Shown here: positions 7,631 through 23,143 of the stretch, piece after piece
Layout: the number at the start of each line of letters is the position of its first letter
Position numbering within the stretch: position 1 is the stretch's first letter
NCBI RefSeq assembly: GCF_009762325.1
Contig: NZ_CP034348.1
Coordinates: 62,001-126,000 of the forward strand
Reading direction: 5' to 3'
DNA: 64,000 nt
From: Roseovarius faecimaris
GTDB taxonomy: Bacteria; Pseudomonadota; Alphaproteobacteria; Rhodobacterales; Rhodobacteraceae
Notes under the pieces: generated by a model
What the model was told of the DNA's origin: nothing
Database searches by the model: none
The model's input: only the letters and a program-made list of their open reading frames with translations
Position numbers and translations under genes: made by a program

Positions 7631-9097
7631 TTACAGGCCGGGTGCGATGTGGCGCAGGGTCTCGGCGGCTCGTTCGATATCCTGACCGAGAGGGCGATCC
7701 TGCTGCAGCATGGCCACGTCGGCGCGGATCGCGCTGTGCAGGGTCTTTACCACCGGGCTGAGCCTCTCTGGTGCGCGCAGGTCAATCGCCTGCGCGGCGG
7801 CCATGGCCTCGGTGCCCGCAAGCAGGTGAAAGGCGCGCATCTGGTCGATGAGTTTGGCCGCGGCCAGCGGGGTGAGGGCGGCGACATCCTCGACAGTGTC
7901 CGACACCGGCGCAGGGTCGAACACCACCGGCATTGCATGGCGACGGATCTCGGCCAGAAGCGAGGCGCAGGTCTTTTGCATCGGCACCATCCCGGCGCTG
8001 GCTCCGCCGATGGGCGAAAGGTATTTCGGCAGGCCCGACAATTCGGGGTTCATCAGCTTTTGAGTGCGTTGCAGCGAGGCATGCGCGGTCATCGCCATCG
8101 CAAGGCTCACGCCCTCCAGCGCCAGCGCCAGCGCGGGCGCGTGGTAATGCCCGGTCGAGGCCATTTCTCCACCATCCAGCACGCTTGGGCTGTCGGCCCC
8201 GGCATTGGCCTCGTCCTCCCAGATCGCAATCGCGCGGGTGAGGGCATCTTCGGCCGCTCCTGTGACGGTGGCGACAAGCCGGAAACTCAGGCTTTCCTGC
8301 ACCCGACGCGGGGTATCCTCGCACCCCTCGAGCCGGGTGCGGAACCAGGTCGCGGCCTGCTGTTGACCCGGTGCGGGCCGCAGCGCGTTGATATCCTCGC
8401 GCAGGATCGTGCGATTGGCGCCGTAGCCAGCATAGCTGAGCAGGACCGCCGCCTTCGCCATGTCGAGCCCCTGCCGAGCGGCGTGCAATGCCAGGGCGGC
8501 GCGGGCGGTCGAGAAGGCCCCTGTATTGCAGAGCGCCAGAGCGTCCTTGGGTTGCAGCGGCGGTGCGCTCGTCGCGGCTTGCGCCAGCGCCTCGCTTGCA
8601 GGCAGCCGCGCGCCCTTGTGCCAGAGCTGCCCGTGACCCAGAAGCGCGTTGGCCCAGACCGCATTCACCGTCAGGTCGGCGGCCCCGATCGAGCCGAACT
8701 CGGGCACCACCGGAGCAAGCCCTGCATTGTAGACTGCAAGCATGTGCTCGACCGTCTCAAGGGACAGCCCTGACCGCCCGGCAGCCGCAGACAGAAGCCG
8801 CGCCAGCAGCATCGCGCGCCCGGTGATCTCGGGCAGGGCCGGGCCGGTGGCCACGCTGCGCCCATCCACAAGCTGTTGCTGAAAGGCGGGGATGTCCTCA
8901 GGCGGAATGCGATGGGCAAGGTTGCCGCCCAGCCCGGTGTTCAGTCCATAGACCGGCGTATCGGACGCCGCCAGCTCTTCCACCGGGCCGCGTGCATCGA
9001 TAATGCGCTGGCGTATGGTCTCGGGCAACTCAAGCGGCGCATGGCTTTTCAGCGCGGCGCAGAATTGGGCAAGGGTCACACGCGCCGAGAGGTCCAT
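7631..9097 (-). CDS. Aromatic amino acid lyase (HutH/PAL) paralogue without the Ala-Ser-Gly triad
   Basis: A 488-residue member of the histidine/phenylalanine ammonia-lyase fold. The family Tyr is present (Tyr50, VYGLNTGLGG) and the overall length is normal, but the segment that forms the MIO electrophile reads GSIGAADL (residues 136-142) where true HutH has GSVGASGDL: Ala-Ser-Gly has become Ala-Ala with one residue lost. The canonical cofactor therefore cannot form and standard lyase activity is unlikely. It is coupled to the upstream cyclodeaminase-like gene by TGATG; a GTG one codon earlier is an alternative start. A genuine hutH lies 10 kb away. Role unknown: alternative chemistry or a binding/regulatory role are both open. 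Confidence 0.88.
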   Translation of the reverse strand: MDLSARVTLAQFCAALKSHAPLELPETIRQRIIDARGPVEELAASDTPVYGLNTGLGGNLAHRIPPEDIPAFQQQLVDGRSVATGPALPEITGRAMLLARLLSAAAGRSGLSLETVEHMLAVYNAGLAPVVPEFGSIGAADLTVNAVWANALLGHGQLWHKGARLPASEALAQAATSAPPLQPKDALALCNTGAFSTARAALALHAARQGLDMAKAAVLLSYAGYGANRTILREDINALRPAPGQQQAATWFRTRLEGCEDTPRRVQESLSFRLVATVTGAAEDALTRAIAIWEDEANAGADSPSVLDGGEMASTGHYHAPALALALEGVSLAMAMTAHASLQRTQKLMNPELSGLPKYLSPIGGASAGMVPMQKTCASLLAEIRRHAMPVVFDPAPVSDTVEDVAALTPLAAAKLIDQMRAFHLLAGTEAMAAAQAIDLRAPERLSPVVKTLHSAIRADVAMLQQDRPLGQDIERAAETLRHIAPGL

Positions 9098-10119
9098 CAC
9101 CAGAACCTCAGCCGCTGGCCAACGCCCAGCCGCCTGGCCTTTTCCAGCATCATATGGCCCAGCGCGATATCCGAGAGCGACAGGCCACGATGCCAGAAGA
9201 GGATCGTTTCCTCCGCGCTTTCGCGCCCCGGCTTCTTGCCCGCCACGATCTCACCAAGCTCCGCATGTAACGTCTCAGCGGTCAGTTTGCCTTGGTCAAC
9301 GTGCTCGCGCAGAGCACCGAAAATGCCACGCGCCTGACCCCAGTCGTCCATCACCACCTTGGCCATGATATCGGTCAGGTTCAGCTCGACCGCCGACATG
9401 GTGCCGTAGGGGATGACAAGCGCGCCGGGCTTGATCCACTCGGTCTTGAACAGCGGCGTGGGCTGACTGAGGCGGCTGGCCTCGACCATGATATCCGCGC
9501 CTTCGAGGCAGCTTTGCCAGTTGTCCGTCACGATGATCTTGCGGCCCAGATCGGCCTCAAGCTGGGCGGCAAAGGCCTCGCGACTTTCGGGGCGGCGGGA
9601 ATGTACGCGGACCTCGTCAAAGTCGAAGAGATGGCACAGGAGCCGCACATTCCAATAGGCGGTGCCGCGCGCACCGATGTGGCCCAGGACCTTCGGCTTG
9701 TCTGGCGCGAGATATTTGGCCCCCAAAGCGGTGACCGCCCCGGTCCGCATCTCGGTGATCCCGGTCGCGTCAACGATGGCCTTGGGCGCGCCCATGCGCG
9801 GATCAAAGAGGGTCAGCAGGCCGTATTCGCTGGGCCGGTCCTGTGTGTAATTGTCCACGAAATCGCCGACGACCTTGGTGCCTGCGCTGTCGATCTCGCC
9901 GCCGATCCAGCCACGCAGCACGTTGAAATGCCCCTCGACCCCGGCGCGGGGGCGGATATGCATGCGGGGCTCGATCGAGGTGTCGCCCGCGCCCTGCATC
10001 CTGAGACCATCCTCGACCGCGCTGAGGATTTCGGCATCGGTCAGGTGCAGCGCCTCCACATCGAAGCGGTTGAGATAGTCCAGATAGACGGGCGGGGTGT
10101 TGGTGGGAGGCTGCGACAT
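9097..10119 (-). CDS. Ornithine cyclodeaminase / mu-crystallin family protein
   Basis: A 340-residue NAD(P)-binding enzyme. The family hallmark MRTGAVTALGAKYLA is present near the middle, followed by a Rossmann segment VLGHIGARGTAYWNVRLL and the EASRLSQPTPLF region. Known relatives catalyse ornithine cyclodeamination, cyclic imine reduction or amino acid dehydrogenation, so the substrate cannot be assigned. The start MSQPPTNTPP is preceded by AGGTG; an upstream extension to 10266 would run through the operator-like palindrome. The following gene is the MIO-less HutH paralogue, overlapping by one base, so the two products probably act together. A palindrome resembling the hutI/hutF one lies 20 bp upstream of the start. 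Confidence 0.88.
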   Translation of the reverse strand: MSQPPTNTPPVYLDYLNRFDVEALHLTDAEILSAVEDGLRMQGAGDTSIEPRMHIRPRAGVEGHFNVLRGWIGGEIDSAGTKVVGDFVDNYTQDRPSEYGLLTLFDPRMGAPKAIVDATGITEMRTGAVTALGAKYLAPDKPKVLGHIGARGTAYWNVRLLCHLFDFDEVRVHSRRPESREAFAAQLEADLGRKIIVTDNWQSCLEGADIMVEASRLSQPTPLFKTEWIKPGALVIPYGTMSAVELNLTDIMAKVVMDDWGQARGIFGALREHVDQGKLTAETLHAELGEIVAGKKPGRESAEETILFWHRGLSLSDIALGHMMLEKARRLGVGQRLRFW

Positions 10120-10138
10120 GGGGCACCTATGTGGCTGT

Positions 10139-10156
10139 CTTATGTCTGGACATAAG
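10139..10156. promoter_or_regulatory. Operator-like palindrome (hut-type motif)
   Basis: Inverted repeat CTTATGTC-TG-GACATAAG, 8 bp per arm, 20 bp upstream of the cyclodeaminase-like start. It shares TTATGTCTnnACATA with the element at 21738-21751 between hutI and hutF. The geometry fits a GntR/HutC-type dimer site; the regulator is not in this window. Confidence 0.6.
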
Positions 10157-10193
10157 CATGGAACACAGTTTGCGGCAATGGTTCTGGCGATAG

Positions 10194-10214
10194 AGAATTT
10201 TCTGCGAAAATTCT
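10194..10214. terminator. AT-rich hairpin downstream of dctM
   Basis: Perfect inverted repeat AGAATTTTC-TGC-GAAAATTCT starting 4 bases beyond the dctM stop codon on the minus strand. No T-run follows. It may mark the transcript end of the TRAP operon or a processing site; its arms resemble those of the palindrome at 28320-28341. Confidence 0.45.
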
Positions 10215-10217
10215 GGG

Positions 10218-11771
10218 TCAGAACACGACTGACGGCAACCAGGTGGCCAGTGCCGGGACGGCCCAAATCGTGGCGATTCCGAGTATTTGGAGAACAATGA
10301 AAGGTGCGACGCCGCGATAGATCATGCCGGTGGTCACGCTGTCGGGGGCGGCCCCACGCAGATAGAAAAGCGAAAAGCCGAAAGGCGGCGTGAGGAAAGA
10401 GGTTTGCAGGTTGATCGCGATGAGGATGGCGAGCCAGACCGGGTCATGCCCCATGAGGATGAGGATCGGGGCCAGAAGCGGCAGCAGGATCACCGTGATC
10501 TCGACGAAATCGAGGAAGAAGCCCAGCACGAAGATCAGAGCCATGGAGAAGATCAGAGCGCCGGTGGCTCCACCGGGCATCTGTTCGAGAATATGCGCCA
10601 CGCGGTCCTCACCCCCCAGTCCCACGAAGACGAGAGAGAAGACGGAGGCCATCAGGATGGTGGCAAAGATCATCGAGCTGACTGTCATGGTGGTGGTGAC
10701 GGCGCTTGCAAGGATCTTCTCGGTATGGAGCTTTCGCAGCGAGGCGAGGATTGCCGTGAATCCCAGCAGGGCGAGCGCGCCGTAAAGCAGGCCGAGAGCA
10801 AGCGCGCCCGCACCGGCATCCGAACGTTGCAGGCGCACGGGGGCGAGGCCGGCTGCGACCGCGAGCACAAGCAAGGCGGCGGCTCCGGCTAGGATGAGTT
10901 TCTTGTTCACCCCTTGCCGTGCCCCTGCCATGAGAATGGCCCCGATGGCCCCTACGCTGGCGGCTTCGGTCGGCGTGGCGATACCGCCCAGGATCGCGCC
11001 CAGAACGGCGATGATCAGCACCACGGGAGGCACGATGGCCCCGGCCACCTCGGCCCAGTGCGGGCGGCCCTCGGGGGTGGGGGCGGGCGGCATGTCCTGC
11101 GGGCGGACAAGGCCCCGGCCCAGCACATAGAGGATGTAGATGGCCACGAGGGTGAGCCCCGGGATCAGCGCACCGGCGAAAATTTGGCCGACAGAGATGG
11201 TTTCAACCGAGAACTTGCCTTGCTCATACTGCGCCTGTTGATAGGCCGAGGACATGACATCCGACAGGATGATGAGGAGCGTCGAGGGCGGGATGATCTG
11301 CCCGAGCGTACCGGCTGTGCAGACCAGCCCGGAGGCCAGGCGCGGGTCATAGTCCGTGCGCAGCATGGTGGGCAGGGCGATGAGGCCCATGGCGATCACC
11401 GTCGCCCCGACGATGCCGGTGGAGGCCGCGAGCAGGGCGCCCACGAGGATCACCGAAATCCCGAGCCCGCCGCGCAGCTGACCAAAGAGGCGGCCCATCG
11501 TATCCAGCAGGTCTTCGGCGATATGCGACCGCTCCAGAATCACGCCCATGGTGACAAAGAGCGGAATGGCAATCAGCACGTCATTGGTGAGCACGCCAAA
11601 CACCCGTTGGCCCAAAGCGCCCAGCAGGCCGATCTGCATGGCACCGGTAGCCCAACCAAGATAGGCAAAAGCAATGGCCGTCCCGGCAATGGCAAAGCTC
11701 ACCGGGAAGCCAAGCAGGATCGCCCCCATCAGCGCAGCAAACATAAGCAGGTCGAGATATTCTGCGATCAT
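10218..11771 (-). CDS. dctM: TRAP transporter large permease (DctM)
   Basis: A 517-residue inner-membrane protein of the ion-transporter fold with a dozen or more hydrophobic segments, starting MIAEYLDLLMFAALMGAILLGFPV. It is longer than the usual ~430 residues because of extra sequence near the middle (after ILAGAAALLVLAVAAG), a variant seen in some DctM proteins. It couples Na+ movement to uptake of a substrate delivered by DctP. The start overlaps the dctQ stop as ATGA, so an upstream in-frame extension was rejected. Conserved C-terminal blocks LGFFLDFVEITVILLPLL and TSFLTPPFGFSLFYLRG are present. Confidence 0.95.
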   Translation of the reverse strand: MIAEYLDLLMFAALMGAILLGFPVSFAIAGTAIAFAYLGWATGAMQIGLLGALGQRVFGVLTNDVLIAIPLFVTMGVILERSHIAEDLLDTMGRLFGQLRGGLGISVILVGALLAASTGIVGATVIAMGLIALPTMLRTDYDPRLASGLVCTAGTLGQIIPPSTLLIILSDVMSSAYQQAQYEQGKFSVETISVGQIFAGALIPGLTLVAIYILYVLGRGLVRPQDMPPAPTPEGRPHWAEVAGAIVPPVVLIIAVLGAILGGIATPTEAASVGAIGAILMAGARQGVNKKLILAGAAALLVLAVAAGLAPVRLQRSDAGAGALALGLLYGALALLGFTAILASLRKLHTEKILASAVTTTMTVSSMIFATILMASVFSLVFVGLGGEDRVAHILEQMPGGATGALIFSMALIFVLGFFLDFVEITVILLPLLAPILILMGHDPVWLAILIAINLQTSFLTPPFGFSLFYLRGAAPDSVTTGMIYRGVAPFIVLQILGIATIWAVPALATWLPSVVF

Positions 11772-12262
11772 GTGCGGAGCCTGACGATATTGCGCATCAG
11801 ACACGCCAGCGACTGGATGAGAAGCAGAATACAAAAGGCCGGGATCAGCGTCTTGAGCAGGAAGACCGCCGGGATGCCGCCGACCGAGATCGCGCCCTCA
11901 TAGATCGCCCAGGCATTGCGAACGGACGGAAAGGACCAGTAGAGCAACGCCAGCATCGACGGGATCAGCAGGACGATATGGCCAAACACATCAATCCGCG
12001 CCTGACCGCGCGGGCTGGCTTTGGCCTGAAAGATATCAACGCGCACATGGTCATCGACCAGAAGCGTATAGCCTGCCCCCAGCATGAAGAGCGTGGCATG
12101 CATGTAAAGCACGCTTTCGTTCAGCGCGATGAAGCTGATGCCATAGACATAGCGCAGCACAACGATGCCGAATTGCACCAGCACCATCGCAATGGCGAGC
12201 CAGCGCACGATGCGGCCCACCATGCGATTGATAGTGTCGAGGTGATCCGCCAGTCGTTCCAT
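11768..12262 (-). CDS. dctQ: TRAP transporter small permease (DctQ)
   Basis: A 164-residue membrane protein with four predicted helices (about residues 15-40, 48-70, 88-110, 128-150) and the DctQ-type pattern LLVDDHVRVDIF after helix 2. It forms the membrane complex with DctM, whose start codon overlaps this stop. The start MERLADHLDTINR was preferred over an upstream in-frame start that would add 26 non-homologous-looking residues and collide with the dctP end. Confidence 0.92.
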   Translation of the reverse strand: MERLADHLDTINRMVGRIVRWLAIAMVLVQFGIVVLRYVYGISFIALNESVLYMHATLFMLGAGYTLLVDDHVRVDIFQAKASPRGQARIDVFGHIVLLIPSMLALLYWSFPSVRNAWAIYEGAISVGGIPAVFLLKTLIPAFCILLLIQSLACLMRNIVRLRT

Positions 12263-12317
12263 GCCCCAGCCCCGTTTGAAGCGGTCCGGCAAAGCTGCCG
12301 GACCACCCTTGTCTTGA

Positions 12318-13403
12318 TCAGTACCCCAGCACTTTCGCACGGGCGTTCATCTGGCCGTTATCCGCATAGACCATGTAGCGACCGATGCTTTCGCGATAGG
12401 CCACGAAGCTTTCCGCGATGCGCTGAACCAGTTCATCCTCGTCGTCGCGCAGTTTACCGATCACCGTATCGGCGGCCTTGCCCATCTCCATCACGATGCT
12501 TTCCGGCAGTTCGCGGACCATCACGCCTTCTTCGGCAACAAGCTTTTCAAGCGCGCGGGCATGCTTGGTCTCGTACTCGGTCCAGACGTCGTTGTAGAGG
12601 CTGGAACAGGCCGTCGCGACCACCAGCTTGAGGTCATCGGAGAGCGCGTCATAGGCAGCCGCGTTTACACCGCATTCCTCGGCCGAGGACGGCTCACCGA
12701 TGCCGGGCCAGTAGTAGTTCTTGGCGATCTGGTGATAGCCGAGCGCCGAGTCTGTCCACGGCCCGATGAATTCGCCGGCATCGAGCGCACCGGACTGCAG
12801 CGCCTGGAACATCGCAGGGCCAGACATCGCCTGTACCGCCATGCCGATTTCGGCACACATTTCCGAAGCTAGGCCGGTGGAGCGATATTTCATGCCCTTC
12901 AGATCATCCACGGAATTGATCTCATCCCGGAACCAGCCGAACCACTGCGGGCCGGAATTGCCGCAGAGGAAGGGCTTGATGCCGAAGCGGCCATACATCT
13001 CATCGTAAAGCGCCTGACCGCCGCCTTGGACCATCCAGCCCACTTGTTCATCCGCGCGCAGGCCGAAAGGCTGCGAGCCGAAGAGCAGGATACCCTTGGA
13101 TTTGGAGCCCCAATAGGCGGGCACCGCGTGATAAAGATGCGCCGTGCCTTCGGAAACGGCATCAAACACACCGCGACCCGGCACGATTTCACCGGCAGCG
13201 TGCAGTTTCACTTCAAGCCGCCCGCCTGACAGCGTGGTGATTCTGTCAGCCAGTGTCTGAGCGGCCACCCCCGGCCCGGGCAGGTTCTTGGGCCAGGCGG
13301 TGACCATGGTCCATTGGGTGATGTCCTGGGCAATTGCCGGGCTGGCCAGCGCCGCCCCTGCCGTGCCGATGGCCCCGGCCTTGATAAAGTCACGTCGTTT
13401 CAT
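12318..13403 (-). CDS. dctP: TRAP transporter substrate-binding protein (DctP)
   Basis: A 361-residue periplasmic binding protein with a twin-arginine-type signal (MKRRDFIKAGAIGTAGAALASPAIAQ). The mature part resembles the TakP-like branch: WPKNLPGPGVAAQ near the N-terminus, AAGEIVPGRGVFDAVSEG, and GMKYRSTGL, whose Arg in this family binds the carboxylate of the ligand. It begins the dctPQM unit and lies 26 bp after a flavin-reductase-like gene in the hut region. From context an imidazole or histidine-derived carboxylate is a reasonable guess, but relatives bind 2-oxo acids and other organic acids. Confidence 0.93.
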   Translation of the reverse strand: MKRRDFIKAGAIGTAGAALASPAIAQDITQWTMVTAWPKNLPGPGVAAQTLADRITTLSGGRLEVKLHAAGEIVPGRGVFDAVSEGTAHLYHAVPAYWGSKSKGILLFGSQPFGLRADEQVGWMVQGGGQALYDEMYGRFGIKPFLCGNSGPQWFGWFRDEINSVDDLKGMKYRSTGLASEMCAEIGMAVQAMSGPAMFQALQSGALDAGEFIGPWTDSALGYHQIAKNYYWPGIGEPSSAEECGVNAAAYDALSDDLKLVVATACSSLYNDVWTEYETKHARALEKLVAEEGVMVRELPESIVMEMGKAADTVIGKLRDDEDELVQRIAESFVAYRESIGRYMVYADNGQMNARAKVLGY

Positions 13404-13429: not shown

Positions 13430-14083
13430 TCAGCTCTTGCCTTCCAGCCCGTCTGCCTCTGCTTGGCTGGCACCGGGGATGCGCATCTCAAACACCTCGC
13501 GCACCACGGTGTAGTCATAATATCCCATTCTTGCGATGGGCTGGATTTTCGCAATGTCCATCTTGCCGTCGGGCTGGATCATTGCGTCATCCACCCGGAT
13601 CCGTTCGACCCGGCCATAGACCACATCGACAAACCCGCCGGGCGTGTCCTCGGGAAGCCGATGCGTGGCGATGTGGCGGCACTCGAACTGCGCCGGGCTT
13701 TCGGCCACATAAGCGCCCGGCGCCTCGGTGCAGGCGGCCTTGGTCACGCCCGCCCGCTCGAACTCATCCACGTCGCTGGTAACGGCCATGGCGCTGATAT
13801 TCACTGCTTCGCGCAGGTCCCAGGTGGCCATGTTCCAGACGAACCAGCCGGTTTCCTCGGCATTGACCACCGTGTCCTTGCGTCGCCCGTCGGCGTGCTG
13901 ATTGGCGGCAAACATCACCATCGGCGGATCGTAGGTCAGGTTCTGCCACTGGCTGTAGGGGGCGAGGTTGTGAACCCCGTCCTTGCTGATCGTCGACAGC
14001 CAGCCAATCGGCCGCGGCACGGTGCAGCTCTTGAACGGCGAAAAGGGCAGGGGGCAGGGCTCATGCCCCGGTGCGTATTCCAT
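13430..14083 (-). CDS. Flavin reductase family protein
   Basis: A 217-residue FMN-binding split-barrel protein of the flavin-reductase-like family. The N-terminal PRPIGWLSTISKDGVHNLAPYSQWQNLTYDPP block is diagnostic for FMN-dependent family members, as is the middle NMATWDLREAVNISA. Such proteins reduce free FMN for a partner or act as small oxidoreductases; no flavin-dependent monooxygenase is next door. It sits between hutU (65 bp upstream) and dctP (26 bp downstream) on the same strand, so it is probably co-expressed with one or both. Confidence 0.85.
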   Translation of the reverse strand: MEYAPGHEPCPLPFSPFKSCTVPRPIGWLSTISKDGVHNLAPYSQWQNLTYDPPMVMFAANQHADGRRKDTVVNAEETGWFVWNMATWDLREAVNISAMAVTSDVDEFERAGVTKAACTEAPGAYVAESPAQFECRHIATHRLPEDTPGGFVDVVYGRVERIRVDDAMIQPDGKMDIAKIQPIARMGYYDYTVVREVFEMRIPGASQAEADGLEGKS

Positions 14084-14148: not shown

Positions 14149-15819
14149 TCACCCCAAAATTCCCGGCAAGTTCAGCCCATGCTCGCGGGCGCAGTCAATC
14201 GCGATGTCATAGCCCGCATCCGCATGGCGCATCACGCCTGTGGCCGGATCGTTCCAGAGCACCCGCTCCAGCCGCCGGTCCGCGTCCTCGCTGCCATCGC
14301 AGCAGATCACCATGCCCGAATGCTGCGAGAAGCCCATGCCAACCCCGCCGCCATGATGCAGGCTCACCCATGTCGCACCTGACGCTGTGTTCAGCAGTGC
14401 ATTCAGCAGCGGCCAGTCCGACACGGCGTCTGAGCCATCTTTCATCGCCTCGGTCTCGCGGTTGGGCGAGGCGACCGAGCCGCTGTCGAGATGGTCCCGT
14501 CCGATCACCACCGGGGCCTTCAACTCGCCATTGCGCACCATCTCGTTGAACGCAAGGCCCGCCCGGTGCCGCTCTCCGAGGCCGATCCAGCAGATCCGCG
14601 CGGGCAGACCCTGAAAGGCAATACGCTCCTGTGCCATGGCGAGCCATTGATGCAGATGGGTGTCCTCGGGAAAGAGCTCCTTCATCTTGGCGTCGGTCTT
14701 GTAGATATCTTCCGGGTCGCCCGACAGAGCACACCAGCGGAACGGCCCCACGCCGCGGCAGAAGAGTGGGCGGATATAGGCCGGCACGAAACCGGGGAAG
14801 GCAAAAGCATTTTCCAGCCCCTCCTCCAGCGCCACCTGCCGGATGTTGTTGCCGTAATCCAGCGTCGGTACGCCTGCGTTCCAGAAATCGACCATCGCCT
14901 TCACATGCACTTTCATGCTTGCGCGGGCCGCTTTCTCCACCGCCTTCGGATCGCTCTCCTGTTTGGCGCGCCATTCGGCCACGGACCAGCCTTGCGGCAG
15001 ATAGCCATGCACCGGGTCATGGGCGCTTGTCTGGTCGGTCACGATGTCCGGGTGCACGCCGCGTTCCACGAGTTCCGCAAACACATCCGCCGCGTTGCCG
15101 ATCAGGCCCACTGACTTTGCCTCGCCCGCCTTTGTCCAGCGGTCGATCATCTCAAGCGCCTCATCGAGCGTATGTGCTTTCTCGTCCAGATACCGTGTGC
15201 GAATGCGGAAATCGACGCGCGTCTCATCGCATTCCACCGCAAGACAGCACGCACCGGCAAAGACCGCGGCCAGAGGCTGTGCGCCGCCCATACCACCCAG
15301 GCCGCCGGTCAGGATCCACCGGCCCGTGAGGTTGCCATCGTAATGCTGCCGCCCGGCCTCGGCAAAGGTCTCGTAAGTGCCCTGCACGATCCCCTGCGTG
15401 CCGATGTAAATCCAGCTTCCGGCCGTCATCTGGCCATACATCATCAGCCCTTTCTTATCGAGCTCGCTGAAATGGTCCCAATTGGCCCAGTGGGGCACGA
15501 TGTTGGAGTTGGCGATCAGCACCCTTGGTGCATCCTTGTGGGTCTGGAAAACCCCCACAGGCTTACCCGACTGCACCAGCAGCGTCTGGTCCTCGTCCAA
15601 CCCCTTCAGCGTGGCGACGATCCGGTCGAAATCTTCCCAGGTCCGTGCCGCGCGGCCGATCCCGCCATAGACGACCAACTCATGCGGGTTCTCGGCCACG
15701 TCCGGGTGCAGGTTGTTCATCAGCATGCGCATCGGCGCTTCTGTGGTCCAATGCTTCGCGGTGATCTCGGCCCCGGTATCGGGATAGATGTCGCGGGTAT
15801 TGTGACGCGGATTGGTCAT
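14149..15819 (-). CDS. hutU: Urocanate hydratase
   Basis: NAD-dependent hydration of urocanate to imidazolonepropionate, the second step of histidine degradation. The 556-residue length is standard. Family landmarks are all visible: [11 protein letters not shown], the glycine-rich [12 protein letters not shown] (about 171-182), TDQTSAHDP, and [14 protein letters not shown] with the catalytic Cys at residue 410. It is the last hut gene of the minus-strand operon, separated from hutG by two genes for a CoA-transferase and an acyl-CoA dehydrogenase, 11 bp after the latter. Confidence 0.98.
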
Positions 15820-15830
15820 TGCATATCTCC

Positions 15831-16976
15831 TTAATGGGCGAGCAGATGCCCGGCGATGATGTTGCGTTGAATCTCGGAAGATCCTTCGTAAATGCGCATG
15901 ATCCTGAGGTCGCGGGTGATCCGCTCGATCGGGAAATCTCTTGTGTAGCCATAGCCGCCATGAATCTGCAGCGCCGTATCGGCCACCATATCGGCCACTT
16001 CTGAGGCCTTCAGCTTGGCCATGGCCGCAGCTTTGGAAAAGCGGTGACCAAGGCTGCGCTGGCGTGCTGCGTCCAGCGCCATGAGCCGTGCGGCCTGCAG
16101 CTCAAGCGCCATGTCGGCGAGCATCCAGCGAATGCCCTGTTTGTCGCTGAGCGCCTCACCGCCGATAACGCGTTCCTTGGCATAGTCCTTTGCTGCATCG
16201 AGCGCGGCCTGTGCCATTCCGATACATTGCGCCGCCACTTCCACGCGGCCATTGTCGAGCACCTGCATCGCGGTTTTGAAACCCTGACCCGCCTCGCCGA
16301 CAAGAGCGGTGTCGGGCAGGTGGCAGTCGAGCGAAAGCGAGAAGACATGCCCGCCCTTCAACCCCATCGTCCGTTCGGGCGGCCCGGCTTCGAAGCCCGG
16401 TGTGCCTTTGGGCAGGAGGAACGCGCTGATGCCGCGGTGCCGTGCATCCGGGTCGGTGACGGCAAAGACCACGATGAAATCCGCGACACCGCCATTCGAG
16501 ATAAAGCACTTGTTGCCTTTGAGGTGCCAGCCGTCCCCGGACCTTACGGCCCGTGTCCGCATATCGGCCGGATCGCTGCCCGCCGTCGGCTCGGTCAGGG
16601 CAAAGGCACCCAACATATGGCTTGTCGCAGCCTTGGGCAGCCACTCGGCTTTCTGCGTATCTGTTCCGCCAATGAGGATCGCATCCGTGGCAAGGTAGTG
16701 CGCCGTCAAGGCCGATGCGGTCGAGCCGCAACCTCCCGCCACGATCTCGACCGCGCGCAGGAGCGCCAACGCAGACACGCCAGAGCCGCCATGCTCCTCG
16801 GGCAGGTTCGCGCCCAGCATCCCGGCCTCGGCCAGGGTGGCCAGCTGTTCGTGCACGAAGGCCGCACTTTCATCGGTCTCCGCCGCCCTGGGCGCGATCC
16901 GTTCCTTCACGATCCGCTCCAGAACGTCGCAGAACAGACGCTCTTCCTCGCTCAGCATGTGCCAAATGTCGCTCAT
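15831..16976 (-). CDS. Acyl-CoA dehydrogenase inside the hut operon
   Basis: A 381-residue FAD enzyme of the short/medium-chain type that inserts an alpha,beta double bond in acyl-CoA. FAD-binding [11 protein letters not shown] is at about 125-135, the C-terminal signature [16 protein letters not shown] near 337-352, and the catalytic base is Glu364 in IYEGSSEIQ. Its start overlaps the stop of the CoA-transferase gene (ATGA) and hutU follows after 11 bp, so it is tightly built into the hut operon. Nothing in standard histidine degradation needs it. A fitting substrate would be imidazolepropionyl-CoA, oxidised to urocanoyl-CoA; this is inference from position and chemistry. Confidence 0.95.
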
Positions 16977-18139
16977 GCGATCACACCCTTTTCCTTTAGC
17001 TCTGCGAACCGCTCCGCATCCACCCCACAGAACTCGGCAAGCACTTGCGCCTGATCCGCGGCCAACCCCGGAGCCGCGCGCGTCGCCAGCGGTTTCTCTC
17101 CGTCGAACCAGACAGGTTGCCCGACAACCGGGCGCTCACCTTGCTGAACGAGGTTGCGGGCCGTCGCATGAGGGCTGGTGCTGGCCTGCGCGATGTCCCA
17201 GATAGGCGCGCTGGGAAGTCCGGCTTCGGCCAGCGCCACCATTGCCGCCTCGGTGCTCTGGTTGCGGCTCCAGGCCTCGATCATGGCCTTCAGCTTAGGC
17301 TCGTTCTGCGTACGCGCCTCGTCGGTTGCATATCGCGCATCCTCGGGCAGTTCCGGCTGTCCGATGAGCTGCGCAAGCCGGGCAAATTGTGCCGGTGTCA
17401 GCACGGCGATCACGACTTGTCCGTCCTGCGTGGCAAAACAGCCAAACGGTGTGGAAAGCGGGTGGCGGTTGCCCACGCGCGCCGGCAATGTGCCGCCATA
17501 GAAATGCAAGGCATGGCTGGTGGTCAGCAACGAATAGAGCGCATCATACATGGACACATCGAGCACGGTGCCCTGTCCCGTGCGACCGCGCTGCACCAGC
17601 GCCGCGAGGATCGACCAGCTGCCAAAGAGCCCGCCCAAAAGGTCGGCCACCGACTCGCCCGTCTTGAGCGGTGCGCCACCATCCTCGCCCGTCGCCGCCA
17701 TAAGTCCCGACATGGCCTGCACCACCAGATCATAGGCAGGCAAATCGCGAAACGGCCCTGTCTGGCCAAACCCGGAGATCCGCGCATAGATCAACCCCGG
17801 ATTGGCCTCGCGCAGAATCTCCGGGCCCAGCCCGATCTTCTCGGCGACGCCGGGCCGGAAATTCTCGACCAGCACGTCACATTTACCGGCGATCTCGCGC
17901 GCAAGAGACAGCCCTTCGGAATCTTTCAGGTTCAGCGCGATGCTGTGCTTGCCCCGGTTGTTGAGATGAAAGAGCGCGCTTTCACCATCGAGAAAGGGCC
18001 CGATATGGCGATAGTCGTCGCCCCGCGCAGGCTCCAGCTTGATCACCTGGGCGCCAAGGTCAGCCAGCAGCGCAGTGCAATAGGGCCCGGCAAGCACTCG
18101 CGTGAGGTCAAGCACCCTGATCCCGTCCAGTGGTTTCAT
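16973..18139 (-). CDS. CaiB/BaiF (family III) CoA-transferase inside the hut operon
   Basis: A 388-residue family III CoA-transferase. Landmarks: LDLTRVLAGPYCTALLADLGA at the N-terminus, the ENFRPG block, and the catalytic Asp137 in AYDLVVQAMSG, followed by GESVADLLGG. Family members move CoA between carboxylic acids through an aspartyl-CoA anhydride. It overlaps hutG upstream (ATGA) and the acyl-CoA dehydrogenase downstream (ATGA). Together the pair could run a CoA loop: activate a propionate-side-chain acid with CoA taken from its own unsaturated product. Donor and acceptor acids cannot be read from sequence. Confidence 0.94.
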   Translation of the reverse strand: MKPLDGIRVLDLTRVLAGPYCTALLADLGAQVIKLEPARGDDYRHIGPFLDGESALFHLNNRGKHSIALNLKDSEGLSLAREIAGKCDVLVENFRPGVAEKIGLGPEILREANPGLIYARISGFGQTGPFRDLPAYDLVVQAMSGLMAATGEDGGAPLKTGESVADLLGGLFGSWSILAALVQRGRTGQGTVLDVSMYDALYSLLTTSHALHFYGGTLPARVGNRHPLSTPFGCFATQDGQVVIAVLTPAQFARLAQLIGQPELPEDARYATDEARTQNEPKLKAMIEAWSRNQSTEAAMVALAEAGLPSAPIWDIAQASTSPHATARNLVQQGERPVVGQPVWFDGEKPLATRAAPGLAADQAQVLAEFCGVDAERFAELKEKGVIA

Positions 18140-18927
18140 GTCGATTGCGCCCGCGCCCAGGCGTCAAGCCCTGCCAATATGTCCTTGAGATGCACCCTGA
18201 GCCTATCTGCGCGATCGTGGAGATATGGCCAGGGCGGGGCCTCGTCCATGTAGGTTGATTGCGCCAATTCCATCTGGATCGCGTGCCATCCGTCGTCCGG
18301 CCGCCCGTAATGCCGCGTGGTCCACCCGCCCCTGAACCGGCCATTGGTGACAGAGCTGTATCCCGCCGCCCGCCCGCAGGCCGTTTCCACCAGTTCGGCT
18401 ATGTCGGGCGCACAGGTCACGCCATCATTCGTGCCGATGTTGAAATCCGGCAGTACGCCCTCGAAGAGGAACGGGATACGAGAGCGTATGGAGTGGCAGT
18501 CGTAGAGCACTGCCACCCCATGCGTTGCGCGCACTCTTTCCAGTTCACTTTGCAAGCTGGCGTGATAAGGCGCGTGGAATAACTCCCGGCGATACTCTAC
18601 CTCGCCGCCAGAAGGCGGCACAGACCAGATCTCCTGACCGTCGAAATCCGTCATCGGGACAAGCCCGGTGGTGTTCTGACCCGGATAGAGGCTCTGCCCG
18701 CTCGGGTCACGGTTGGCGTCGATCACGTAGCGATGGAAGGTCGCGCGCACTGTGGTGACACCCTCCAGCAAACCGTCATAGAGCTTGTGGATGTTCCAGT
18801 CGGTATCGGCCAGCGCCCGACCCGTTTCATTCAGCTTTGCCCGCACGTCAGCAGGCACATACGTCCCCGTATGCGGCAGGCCCAGCACAATCGGCCCGTC
18901 GCCCTGCACCACCTCAACCGGCTGCAT
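18136..18927 (-). CDS. hutG: N-formylglutamate deformylase
   Basis: A 263-residue N-formylglutamate amidohydrolase-family zinc enzyme that releases formate and glutamate, the last step after HutF. Typical blocks: GLPHTGTYVP near the N-terminus, HRYVIDANRDPSGQSLYPGQNTTGL, the HAPYHA segment, and LYDCHSIRSRIPFLFEG with metal-ligand His. The start MQPVEVVQGDG is preceded by AGGGGGGTGCC; 12 extra upstream residues in frame come from an intergenic repeat. It lies 57 bp after hutH and overlaps the CoA-transferase gene by 4 bases. Confidence 0.95.
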   Translation of the reverse strand: MQPVEVVQGDGPIVLGLPHTGTYVPADVRAKLNETGRALADTDWNIHKLYDGLLEGVTTVRATFHRYVIDANRDPSGQSLYPGQNTTGLVPMTDFDGQEIWSVPPSGGEVEYRRELFHAPYHASLQSELERVRATHGVAVLYDCHSIRSRIPFLFEGVLPDFNIGTNDGVTCAPDIAELVETACGRAAGYSSVTNGRFRGGWTTRHYGRPDDGWHAIQMELAQSTYMDEAPPWPYLHDRADRLRVHLKDILAGLDAWARAQST

Positions 18928-18937
18928 GGCACCCCCC

Positions 18938-18962
18938 TGCTTCTTCCTGGAAAAAGTCCTCA
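18938..18962 (-). repeat. Intergenic repeat copy (GGAG-TTTTT-CCAGGAAGAAG type)
   Basis: In the hutH-hutG gap, minus strand: GAGGACTTTTTCC followed by AGGAAGAAGCAGG. It resembles copies at 25825-25857, 36319-36353, 60652-60685 and 63932-63962, all intergenic. Confidence 0.4.
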
Positions 18963-18984
18963 TTCGACACTGGTCGCATCGCGC

Positions 18985-20511
18985 TTACAACTCCATGCTC
19001 AGGCCAGCGGCAGCGACCAGATCGCCCTCCCGGATCATCACGGCCGCAGAATGCAGATCGGGCGCCAGGTACCGGTCCGCTTCCAGCACGGGCACCGCCT
19101 GCCGCAGCCGTGCGACAACCGCCTGCAAGGGGGGGCTTGTCTTCAGCGGTGCGCGGAAGCCGACGCCCTGCGCGGCGCATATCGCTTCGACCCCCAGAAT
19201 GGTGTTCAGGTTCTGCACCATCCGGCTCAGCCGCCGCGCGGCATGTGCCGCCATGCTCACATGGTCCTCCTGATTGGCGGAGGTCGGCGTGCTGTCTGTC
19301 GTGCAGGGATTTGCCAGGTGTTTGTTTTCGCTCATCAGGGCGGCGGTCGTCACCTCGGCAATCATCAGGCCCGAATTCAGCCCCGGCTCTGGTGTCAGGA
19401 AAGGGGGCAGATCGAAGCTGAGCGTCGGGTCCACCATCAGCGCGACGCGCCGCTGCGCGATTGCACCAATCTCGGCCACCGCCATGGCGATCTGATCGGC
19501 GGCAAAACCCACCGGCTCGGCGTGGAAGTTCCCGCCCGAGACAATCCGCCCCTCACTTACCAGCACCAGAGGATTGTCGGTGACGGCGTTGGCCTCAACT
19601 TCCAGCACCTCGCCCGCCCGGCGCAGCAGGTCCATCGCCGCGCCGGTCACCTGTGCCTGACACCGGATGCAATAGGGGTCTTGCACTCGTGTGTCGTCCT
19701 CGCGGTGGCTCTCGCGGATTTCGCTACCCTCCATCAACGCCCTCTGCGCCCGCGCCGCTTCGATCTGACCACGGTGACCGCGCAGGGTGTGTATCTCGTC
19801 CACTAGGGGTGCCGTCGATCCCATGATCGCATCGGTCGAGAGCGCAGAGGTGACAATCGCGCCCTGCGCCGCGCGCCATGCGCCCCACAATCCGACCAGC
19901 GCGCATGCTGTAGAGAATTGTGTGCCGTTGATCAGCGCCAGCCCTTCCTTTGGCCCCAGCTCGATCGCGGAGAGCCCCGCCGCGCGCAAGGCGTCAGCTG
20001 CAGTCACGCGGTCGCCGTCATAGGTCACCTCGCCCTCGCCCATCATCGCCGCTGCCATGTGTGCCAGCGGGGCAAGGTCGCCCGATGCGCCCACGCTGCC
20101 CTGTTCGGGGACCACCGGGATCACACCCGCTGTCAGCATATCTTCGATGAGCTGCACGGTGGTCCAGCGCACGCCAGACGCCCCCCGCCCAAGCGACATG
20201 AGCTTGAGCACCATCATCAGCCGCGTTGTGGCCTCGTCGAGCGCATCACCCACGCCACAGCAATGCGACAGGATCAGGTTGCGCTGAAGCTGCGCGGTGT
20301 CCCTGGCCGGGATCTTGACCGAGGCAAGCTTGCCGAAGCCCGTGTTCACGCCATAGACGGCGTCTTCTCCTGCTGCCGCGCGCGCCACCAGATCGGCCGC
20401 GGCCTCGACCCCCGGTTTCACCGAGCGGTCAAGCGAGACCGCCAGCCGCCCTCGCCAGATGCGTTCCAGCTGCGCCAGCGTCACCGCGCCCGGTATCAAC
20501 ACCTCGCTCAC
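18985..20511 (-). CDS. hutH: Histidine ammonia-lyase
   Basis: Non-oxidative deamination of L-histidine to urocanate. 508 residues from a GTG start whose last two bases are the first two of the hutI TGA (GTGA overlap); this start gives the usual N-terminus and places the MIO-forming Ala142-Ser143-Gly144 at the positions known for bacterial HutH, in [16 protein letters not shown]. The catalytic Tyr53 ([10 protein letters not shown]) and the [10 protein letters not shown] region are also present. An in-frame extension to 20769 lies inside hutI and is not coding in this frame. Confidence 0.98.
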
Positions 20512-21710
20512 GGCTTGCCTCCAAAGATACGCCTGTTCAGCGGGTTGAAGCCAATCCGATACGATAGCTCCGCCGGATGCTCCACGTCCCAGACCGCCAG
20601 ATCGGCGCGCTTGCCCGGCGCGATCACGCCGCAATCGGTCAGCCCCAATGCCTGCGCGGCGTTGCGTGTTACCCCGGCCAATGCCTCTTCGGGTGTCATC
20701 CGGAAGAGTGTGCATCCCATGTTCATCGTCAGAAGCAGCGAGGCCAGAGGCGATGACCCCGGATTGCAATCCGTGGCCAGGGCCATCGGTACGGCATGCG
20801 CCCGGAAGGCCTCTATCGGCGGGGCCTGGGTCTCGCGGATCGTGTAGAAGGCTCCGGGCAGGATCACGGCAACAGAGCCCGCTGCGGCCAGCGCGCGGGC
20901 ATCCGCCTCATTGGCATATTCCACGTGATCCGCCGACAACGCGCCGTAACGCGCGGCAAGTTGCGTGCCGCCAATATGGCTGAGTTGCTCGGCATGGAGT
21001 TTCACCGGCAGGCCCAGTTCTTTCGCCCGCGCAAATACCGGCTCGATCTCATCCACAGAGAAGGCGATCCCCTCGCAGAACCCATCTACCGCATCGGCAA
21101 GGCCCTCTGCATGGGCGGCTTCCAGTGCGGGCAGGCAAACCTCACGGATATACTCGGCCTTGCGCCCGTCATACTCTTTCGGCAGGGCATGCGCGCCCAG
21201 GAACGAGGTCTTCACCCGCACGTCCCGCGCGCCCTCGATGGCCCGTGCCGCGCGTAACATCTTCAGCTCGGTGTCGATGTCGAGGCCATAGCCTGACTTG
21301 ACTTCGATCACCGCCGCACCCTCGGCGATCAGCGCATCGGCAAAGCGCAGGGCCCCGGCCAGAAGCTCGGCCTGGCTGGCCGCGCGCGTGGCCGTAACGG
21401 TCGAGACGATCCCGCCCCCGGCCCGCGCCACTTCCTCATAGCTTGCACCGTTGAGGCGCATTTCAAACTCGCCCGCGCGGTGTCCGCCATGGACGATATG
21501 CGTGTGGCAATCGATCAGCGCAGGCGTGATCAGCCGCCCTTGCATATCCTCGCCCTCGTCTGCTTCGGCAGGGCACTCCGTATCGGGGCCGACCCAGGCG
21601 ATCCGCCCGTCCTTCACCCACAGCGCGGCCTGGCGCAGCAGCCCGTAGGGCGCGCCATCCCTCATGGTGGCAATCGTTGCATTTCGCAGCAGCATCGCGG
21701 TCACTATCAT
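20508..21710 (-). CDS. hutI: Imidazolonepropionase
   Basis: Metal-dependent amidohydrolase that opens imidazolonepropionate to N-formiminoglutamate. 400 residues; the HxH metal pair is His69/His71 ([12 protein letters not shown]), followed by [21 protein letters not shown] and [10 protein letters not shown], all family landmarks. It is first in the minus-strand hut operon and overlaps hutH by GTGA. A second ATG five codons in (21695) is an alternative start; neither has a strong Shine-Dalgarno. The gene faces hutF across a 68-bp gap that contains a palindromic operator candidate. Confidence 0.97.
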
Positions 21711-21737
21711 CTTGCGTCAAAGGGTCGTTCAGATTAT

Positions 21738-21751
21738 TATGTCTATACATA
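21738..21751. promoter_or_regulatory. Operator-like palindrome between hutI and hutF
   Basis: TATGT-CTAT-ACATA in an AT-rich 68-bp divergent gap, about midway between the two starts. It matches the HutC-like pattern TGTnTAnACA and is shared in part with the perfect palindrome at 10139-10156. A site here could control both directions of the hut cluster. Confidence 0.6.
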
Positions 21752-21778
21752 TTAATCGAGTCAACACGGGAATTGGAT

Positions 21779-23143
21779 ATGGACACGATTTGGGCAAAGA
21801 CGGCCCTGCTGCCCGCGGGATGGGCCGAGGATGTGACGGTTTCGCTGGATGCGAGCGGGCGTATTGAATCCGCGGAACCGGGCACAGCGCCCGGGGGCGT
21901 CCGCGTCGGCATCCTGCTGCCCGCACCGGTCAATGCCCATTCCCATGCCTTTCAGCGCGCCATGGCGGGCATGACTGAACGCCGCGGCCCCGATCCGCGC
22001 GATACGTTCTGGACCTGGCGGCAACTCATGTACCGGTTCCTCGATCGGCTGACGCCCGAACAGGTACAGGCGATTGCAGCCTTGGTGCAGATGGAAATGC
22101 TGGAGGCGGGCTATGCCACCAATGTCGAGTTCCACTATTTGCATCACCAGCCCGGCGGCATGCCCTATGACACCCTTTCGGAAATGGCGCAGCGGATCGT
22201 AGCGGCGACAGAACAGACCGGGATCGGCCTTACCCTGCTGCCGGTTCAATACCAGTTCGGCGGCTGCGACCGGTCCGGACTGGGCCCCGGGCAGATCCGC
22301 TTTGGCAACGACCCCGAACGCTTTGCCCGGCTGGTCGAGGAGAGCCGTGCAGCGATCAGCGGCCTGCCCGCCGATACGGTGCTTGGGATTGCGCCGCATA
22401 GCCTGCGCGCGGTTGCCCCCGAAGACATTCGACGCGCGCCCGAGCTGTCAGGTAGAGGCCCGGTCCATCTGCACCTCGCCGAGCAGGTCAAAGAGGTGGA
22501 AGAGGTCTCGGCCGCCTGGGGGGCGCGGCCGGTGGAATGGCTGTTGGACAATGTCGAGGTCAGTGACCAATGGTGCCTGATCCACTGCACCCAGATGGAG
22601 CCGCATGAGACCACCGGCCTTGCGGCCACCAGCGCGGTTGCGGGGCTTTGCCCGATCACCGAATCGAGCCTGGGCGACGGTATCTTTGACGGTGTGCGCT
22701 GGCTGGCCGCGGGCGGCTCGATCGCGGTGGGGTCTGACAGCAACATCCGCATCTCGCTGTCGGAAGAGTTGCGCACGCTCGACTATTCCCAACGCCTGCG
22801 GGACCGTTCCCGCGCCGCGCTGGCCACGCCCGAACACTCCACCGCACGCCGCCTGCTTGAAGCGATCTGCGCAGGTGGGGCCAGGGCTGCTGGACGCGAA
22901 ACAGGGCGGATCGCCCCAGGCATGTGGGCCGATCTCATGGCGCTCGATGCGGAGCATATCGACCTTGAGGGCCTATCCGGTGACATGCTGCTCGATACCT
23001 GGGTGTTTGCCGGGGATGACCGCAAGGTGCGCGATGTCTGGTCTGCGGGCCGCCACCTTGTCATTCAGGGCCGCCACCGCGCCCGTGACGCGATCGAGGC
23101 CGCCTATCGCCGTGCCATGGCTCCGCTGCGGGACGCTCTGTAA
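21779..23143 (+). CDS. hutF: Formimidoylglutamate deiminase
   Basis: Amidohydrolase that converts N-formiminoglutamate to N-formylglutamate and ammonia; the presence of hutF plus hutG defines the five-step version of the histidine pathway. 454 residues, with metal-ligand His54/His56 (NAHSHAFQRAMAG), FHYLHHQPGG, HLAEQVKEVEE and ESSLGDGIFD blocks typical of HutF. The start MDTIWAKTALL was chosen from the family N-terminus; the longer open frame would read back across the operator. It is the only hut gene on the plus strand. Confidence 0.96.
   Translation: MDTIWAKTALLPAGWAEDVTVSLDASGRIESAEPGTAPGGVRVGILLPAPVNAHSHAFQRAMAGMTERRGPDPRDTFWTWRQLMYRFLDRLTPEQVQAIAALVQMEMLEAGYATNVEFHYLHHQPGGMPYDTLSEMAQRIVAATEQTGIGLTLLPVQYQFGGCDRSGLGPGQIRFGNDPERFARLVEESRAAISGLPADTVLGIAPHSLRAVAPEDIRRAPELSGRGPVHLHLAEQVKEVEEVSAAWGARPVEWLLDNVEVSDQWCLIHCTQMEPHETTGLAATSAVAGLCPITESSLGDGIFDGVRWLAAGGSIAVGSDSNIRISLSEELRTLDYSQRLRDRSRAALATPEHSTARRLLEAICAGGARAAGRETGRIAPGMWADLMALDAEHIDLEGLSGDMLLDTWVFAGDDRKVRDVWSAGRHLVIQGRHRARDAIEAAYRRAMAPLRDAL

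Follow-up and report, generated by a model that had tools for sequence, protein, structure and literature searches.

The window analyzed here is a stretch of 64,000 nt from Roseovarius faecimaris (contig NZ_CP034348.1, positions 62,001 to 126,000). Its minus strand carries the histidine degradation genes hutI, hutH and hutG, which are followed by genes for a family III CoA-transferase (CoAT) and an acyl-CoA dehydrogenase (ACAD), by hutU, by a flavin-reductase-like gene and by the genes of a DctPQM-type TRAP transporter, and hutF is divergently oriented. The features are, in window coordinates:

10218..11834, minus strand: TRAP large permease, DctM-like
11768..12340, minus strand: TRAP small permease, DctQ-like
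12318..13403, minus strand: TRAP solute-binding protein, DctP family
13430..14083, minus strand: flavin-reductase-like protein, downstream of hutU
14149..15819, minus strand: hutU, urocanate hydratase (955.6 bits, cut-off 375)
15831..16976, minus strand: ACAD, acyl-CoA dehydrogenase by family profile and alignment; predicted imidazolepropionyl-CoA dehydrogenase
16973..18139, minus strand: CoAT, family III CoA-transferase by family profile and alignment; predicted imidazolepropionate:urocanoyl-CoA CoA-transferase
18136..18963, minus strand: hutG, N-formylglutamate deformylase (360.7 bits, over the cut-off)
18985..20769, minus strand: hutH, histidine ammonia-lyase, by our reading and its conserved place (longest ORF, start provisional)
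20508..21710, minus strand: hutI, imidazolonepropionase
21677..23143, plus strand: hutF, formimidoylglutamate deiminase, divergent (longest ORF, start provisional)
21738..21751, no strand assigned: hut-type site TATGTCTATACATA between hutI and hutF, common to other hut promoters

An earlier note on this DNA had stated that hutG overlaps with the CoAT gene and the CoAT gene with the ACAD gene, and had placed hutU 11 bp further on. Both statements are exact: each overlap comprises the four bases ATGA, and 11 bp separate the ACAD stop from the hutU start. The protein cluster of the flavin-reductase-like gene is represented in 16 of 81 regions, i.e., the window and 80 related loci; in the 15 related loci the gene is mostly located after hutU, and in four it lies beyond hutF. 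A role of this gene in histidine degradation is not known to us. A second hut-type site, TATGTCTGGACATA, with one mismatch, was found at 10141-10154, at the start of an ornithine-cyclodeaminase-family gene (9097-10266), which is followed by a gene for a HutH-like aromatic ammonia-lyase (7631-9100; 310 bits, HutH cut-off 539). The latter two genes possibly form a further hut-controlled operon.

The CoA_transf_3 domain was detected in CoAT with 399.5 bits from residue 4 to 362 and spans the length of the protein. The predicted model (mean pLDDT 84.7) has the expected fold, and CaiB structures are among the solved matches in a fold-level search against the pdb. Asp166 is invariant in 34 sequences, and the best solved relatives also have an Asp at the aligned position; we take Asp166 to be the catalytic residue by correspondence with FRC Asp169. 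ACAD carries the N-terminal, middle and C-terminal domains of its family (Pfam PF02771, PF02770 and PF00441), and its predicted model (mean pLDDT 88.7) reached a TM of about 0.9 to solved ACADs in the pdb, again as fold-level matches. CarC (PDB 6fah) is among the solved relatives of ACAD. Glu364 at the YEG motif is invariant in 34 sequences and is presumably catalytic, as it corresponds to MCAD Glu376.

CoAT and ACAD stay under the cut-offs of all NCBIfam models listed, and thus their substrate cannot be read from the sequences alone. The best NCBIfam model for ACAD is the acyl-CoA reductase AcrC (385.9 bits, cut-off 640). Several specificities were tried and rejected. An identity with the carnitine enzymes CaiB and CaiA was discarded (129.9 bits versus a cut-off of 413, and 166.2 versus 540), as were succinate-glutarate CoA-transferase and glutaryl-CoA dehydrogenase (292.4 versus 750 and 235.3 versus 470 bits), formyl-CoA:oxalate CoA-transferase (225.6 versus 504.2 bits) and CoA:oxalate CoA-transferase (307 versus 522 bits). 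Both proteins also stayed under the curated cut-offs for mesaconate and further named specificities. A thiourocanate (ergothioneine) route was rejected as well, because the HutU of the window scores under both thiourocanate-type cut-offs.

The earlier note had proposed to search the hut clusters of other Rhodobacterales for the same gene order, and had considered an order found only here as evidence against its reading. The order recurs widely and the module is conserved. In a species genome collection, the best 80 of 214 CoAT relatives were kept, in which CoAT identity ranges from 76 to 50%. Among these 80 loci the ACAD gene directly follows the CoAT gene in 79, including one (L029) with an ACAD gene split by a frameshift, and it is absent from this place in L083. 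The three genes CoAT, ACAD and hutU are directly consecutive in 63 of these best 80 loci. The other 17 loci include three that are cut by contig ends and have hut genes upstream (L040, L057, L071), one with hut genes about 4 kb from the pair (L034), one with remnants of hut genes (L039), and seven in which CoAT and ACAD are followed by genes of an ABC importer (L014, L018, L021, L027, L028, L030, L043). The five most distant loci (L079-L083) have no hut gene within the stretch fetched.

As the best 80 represent the nearest relatives, with many Rhodobacterales among them, an evenly drawn sample is less biased, and 121 Rhodobacterales genomes were therefore screened for CoAT at an E value of at most 1e-120. 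CoAT was present in 7 and hutU in 63 genomes, and all seven CoAT genomes also have hutU (Fisher p 0.014). In six of the seven, ACAD alone separates CoAT and hutU, and in the seventh the two are about 5.6 kb apart. At this cut-off 56 of the 63 hutU genomes are devoid of CoAT, and the comparison of 7 with 63 genomes indicates that the module is accessory and not part of every hut pathway. The CoAT clade is uncommon elsewhere, with 7/289 and 7/299 genomes at 440 bits or more, a cut that was picked after viewing scores that continue below it, and with at most six candidates scored per genome, so that CoAT may have been missed in some genomes of these two sets. The raw tallies at E 1e-110 were 80/289 and 16/299, and the surroundings were inspected for 11 stretches. 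In two other orders CoAT was found at E 1e-130 solely in the respective seed genome (1/145 and 1/200).

A 14-bp site with the pattern TAWGTHTADACWTA is located in the interval between hutF and hutI. Among 58 embedded loci, 39 have this site near hutI when one mismatch is allowed, the other 19 have none there, and three matches lie at other places in these loci. The pattern had been drawn by eye from hut and CoAT promoters before the counting, which makes the count dependent on this choice; the empty remainder of the loci and shuffled sequences serve as controls. The site is also located upstream of CoAT in eight of nine CoAT-ACAD-ABC modules outside of the operon. In the modules outside of the operon, 16 matches lie within 600 bp upstream of CoAT, compared with none in the rest of the 159,182 bp, and 200 Markov-shuffled versions of the upstream sequences gave no match. 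L039 has two sites, which are located over 500 bp upstream, ahead of a hutI remnant, and L034 has no hut-type site with up to one mismatch. All four GntR proteins tested that are encoded beside outside modules pass the HutC cut-off (L018, L027, L028, L030), and the site can be regarded as a putative HutC site. The genome of the window encodes one HutC over the cut-off (258.2 bits versus 220), which is located far from hut (G000:C2:2870126-2870797; L172 13121-13822). This HutC gene adjoins another acyl-CoA dehydrogenase cluster, and a GntR gene of the same cluster as this HutC adjoins hutF in many related loci.

hutU is encoded in all 14 genomes in which it is not directly behind the pair, the three contig-cut loci being set aside, and in L034 it lies within the same locus as the pair. 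It is likewise present in ten of ten further genomes, which include three without an ACAD gene adjoining CoAT (G219, G295, G370); both counts stand without an exact base rate of hutU outside Rhodobacterales. In G370 a more distant CoAT (41%) adjoins a hutU fragment, with no ACAD gene between them. One of the ten, the alphaproteobacterial genome G219, has seven HutU-family genes, which are 73 to 47% identical to the HutU of the window. A CoAT tree, a quick one with 50 of 99 rows and with L001, L003 and three loci without a directly adjoining ACAD (L151, L152, L153) as outgroups, places the modules outside of the operon among the embedded ones (34 rows, SH-aLRT 99), and its well-supported branches require at least two changes of arrangement.

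The arrangement in L144, which stems from a genome of another class (G472) and has an unsure placement in the tree, is HutC-type regulator, hutU, CoAT (50%), ACAD (54%) and NCS1-type permease. By our reading the neighboring genes resemble those of Pseudomonas. The ORFs picked from 19.5 kb of this locus include no hutH, hutI, hutG or hutF, and an ordinary hut cluster with its own hutU is located elsewhere in this genome. A second hutU together with CoAT and ACAD and without hutH fits a route that makes urocanate without HutH. No hut-type site was found in L144 within two mismatches, which leaves the HutC-type gene as the sole indication of how this satellite operon is controlled.

Four further genomes show other arrangements, with hut genes no more than about 10 kb from the pair, namely G591 (L143), G012 (L145), G175 (L148) and G107 (L091). 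All four loci have a gene nearby that looks to us like a LysR gene, and L091 and L145 have the same TRAP system as the window. For three outer pairs (L146, L147, L149) no hut gene was present within the 19.5 kb fetched. Rieske oxygenase genes are located near hutH or HutC-type genes and beside outer pairs in two loci (L148 7026-8144; L091 11289-12413). In Paracoccus alkanivorans (L039), remnants of hutI and hutU (8517-8834 and 11310-11600) flank an intact CoAT-ACAD pair, as if hut genes had decayed around a retained pair; a full hutU is present elsewhere in this genome.

Gene order, promoter sites and co-occurrence link the CoAT-ACAD pair to hut. The tie to histidine degradation that the earlier note had read from a single operon is thus strongly supported by the conserved order, by the co-occurrence with hutU, by the shared promoter site and by the satellite operon of HutC-type regulator, hutU, CoAT and ACAD without hutH.

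The importers and the dehydrogenase give hints to the nature of the substrate. The ABC binding proteins linked to the pair belong to an amino-acid family, and all 37 have Ser at the position of the ammonium-binding Asp, a count that omits one unlinked row, the second match in L043, which is gapped at this position. Of five solved relatives compared, four have Asp there; the remaining one is a chain of two domains, one of which carries Asp at this position and the other Glu. The linked proteins keep the Arg of the ITPER motif. Following the glutamine-binding protein, we take the Asp to bind the alpha-ammonium group and the Arg to bind the carboxylate. The exchange of Asp for Ser together with the kept Arg suggests that these proteins probably bind an acid that is devoid of an alpha-amino group. 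Histidine was considered as a ligand and is disfavored by the changed ammonium-binding position. The window has a TRAP system instead of an ABC importer. The nearest solved relative of its binding protein, 5cm6, bears just the name of a DctP subunit; further solved relatives are 7ug8, named as ketoacid-binding, and 2hzk, which was deposited under a sorbitol/mannitol name and which we take to be a 2-oxoacid binder. These relatives argue weakly for an acid of this kind as the ligand. The importers could also carry urocanate or another acid.

In ACAD, Glu246, two residues past Arg244, is presumably near the acyl pocket by MCAD numbering. It is Glu in all 81 core sequences, and in the outer ACADs the position is Glu in 10 and Asp in one of 11 readable sequences, a twelfth being truncated. 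None of 13 ACAD paralogues of the window genome has Glu at this position and one has Asp, and three solved relatives that were compared have Gly. It is suggestive, though no more than that, that the acidic side chain could hold an imidazolium ring.

Imidazolepropionate (dihydrourocanate) and urocanate are one alpha,beta double bond apart, and a CoA-transferase together with an ACAD is an established means of inserting such a bond. We consider it quite probable that imidazolepropionate enters histidine degradation by a side route formed by the CoAT-ACAD pair. Imidazolepropionate would be taken up by the TRAP or ABC system that is linked to the pair, and CoAT would shift CoA from urocanoyl-CoA to it via an enzyme-bound aspartyl intermediate, a mechanism that is known for the CoAT family. 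ACAD would then use FAD to remove the alpha and beta hydrogens of imidazolepropionyl-CoA and yield urocanoyl-CoA. The electrons may pass to ETF and on to ETF-quinone oxidoreductase, a gene for which was found in the window genome. The next CoA transfer would release urocanate for HutU, HutI, HutF and HutG, and the loop, once primed by a little acyl-CoA, would proceed without ATP. We infer the substrate, the direction, the CoA donor and ETF as the acceptor; urocanoyl-CoA is plausible as the donor by analogy. The proposed conversion of imidazolepropionate to urocanate, which the earlier note had put forward, receives indirect support from the reaction logic, from the change at the ammonium position of the ABC binding proteins and from the invariant acidic residue of ACAD.

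The context, the binding proteins and Glu246 indicate an acid that lacks an alpha-amino group and joins hut, not the exact ring. The module might thus act on a relative of imidazolepropionate, such as N-methyl- or 2-thio-imidazolepropionate or another heteroaryl propionate, and deliver the matching urocanate analogue. We regard this as unlikely, as both the linked HutU of the window and the additional HutU encoded in L144 are urocanate hydratases of the ordinary kind and score under the two thiourocanate-type cut-offs. A different explanation would keep the compounds and turn the direction, so that activated urocanate would serve as an electron sink and be reduced to imidazolepropionate, as CaiB and CaiA do with carnitine. 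The chemistry is reversible in principle, and the best NCBIfam model of ACAD, albeit under its cut-off, is an acyl-CoA reductase. However, the pair is in line with importers and with the urocanate-consuming hutU, and the satellite operon L144 contains hutU but no hutH and so has no urocanate source of its own, which makes a reductive function decidedly unlikely. The importers and the position of hutU beside the pair argue for the oxidative direction.

Both enzyme families are large and versatile, and neither protein reaches an equivalog cut-off, as would also be expected if the pair handled an unrelated short acyl-CoA and merely rode in the operon. This is very unlikely in view of the fact that the pair is kept with hut across orders, has the same promoter site when it is separate and occurs in hutU-positive genomes in every case tested. 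Lastly, the pair might convert cis-urocanate, which is formed by sunlight and is not known to be used by HutU, to trans-urocanate via CoA esters and a transient reduction. This would also fit the linkage to hut and an importer for a non-amino acid, but it needs a net-neutral redox reaction by ACAD, for which we know of no precedent, and it appears most improbable.

For the entry of imidazolepropionate, the broader proposal is a dedicated aerobic pathway in which an importer, CoAT and ACAD under hut control form an ATP-free urocanoyl-CoA loop that joins hut at urocanate and constitutes a module portable between bacteria, in one genome with its own hutU; on balance we favor this proposal, with moderate confidence. 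It names two enzymes and two importer types for the breakdown of imidazolepropionate and points to culturable carriers, e.g., Paracoccus denitrificans DSM 413, whose locus L078 contains hutF to hutU together with CoAT and ACAD as well as genes of an ABC importer. Degradation of imidazolylpropionate by Pseudomonas testosteroni was reportedly, to judge from a title, the subject of a paper by Coote and Hassall in 1973, and since this paper exists, the physiology of bacterial imidazolepropionate degradation may already be known. Genes for imidazolepropionate breakdown were not described in the portions available of the open-licence literature searched, which mostly does not extend to subscription papers, and five names for the CoA esters concerned, as well as phrases for the degradation, were absent from this literature. 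According to parts of this literature, imidazole propionate is made by gut bacteria from urocanate and is associated with type 2 diabetes. A 2026 preprint deals with its formation in the gut, and the term acyl-CoA is absent from its main text (PMC13320830).

Several known systems can be compared with the window. In the main text of a survey of the HutC regulon, hutHUIFG are under HutC, and the regulon includes added transporters and extra hutH copies, whereas neither an acyl-CoA dehydrogenase nor a CoA-transferase is named there (PMC5343134). Urocanate reductase, UrdA, is described in a further study as a flavin enzyme that reduces urocanate, and its reaction connects the two compounds of the proposed route, urocanate and imidazole propionate (PMC10882135). 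The dehydrogenase of the window is, in contrast to UrdA, an ACAD by Pfam. UrdA is not known to need CoA.

The CaiB/CaiA system, which functions in carnitine metabolism, likewise combines a family III CoA-transferase with an enzyme of the ACAD family and cycles CoA between substrate and product, but it runs reductively on carnitine, and the window proteins score far under the carnitine-specific cut-offs. The caffeate CoA loop of Acetobacterium woodii, with CarA and CarC, shares the ATP-sparing transfer of CoA from product to substrate and an arylpropionate/arylacrylate pair; in contrast, it is reductive and anaerobic, and its substrate is caffeate. CoA loops are better known from anaerobic reduction, and, if true, the route proposed here would be an oxidative example of such a loop and a new entry point to the textbook pathway of histidine degradation.
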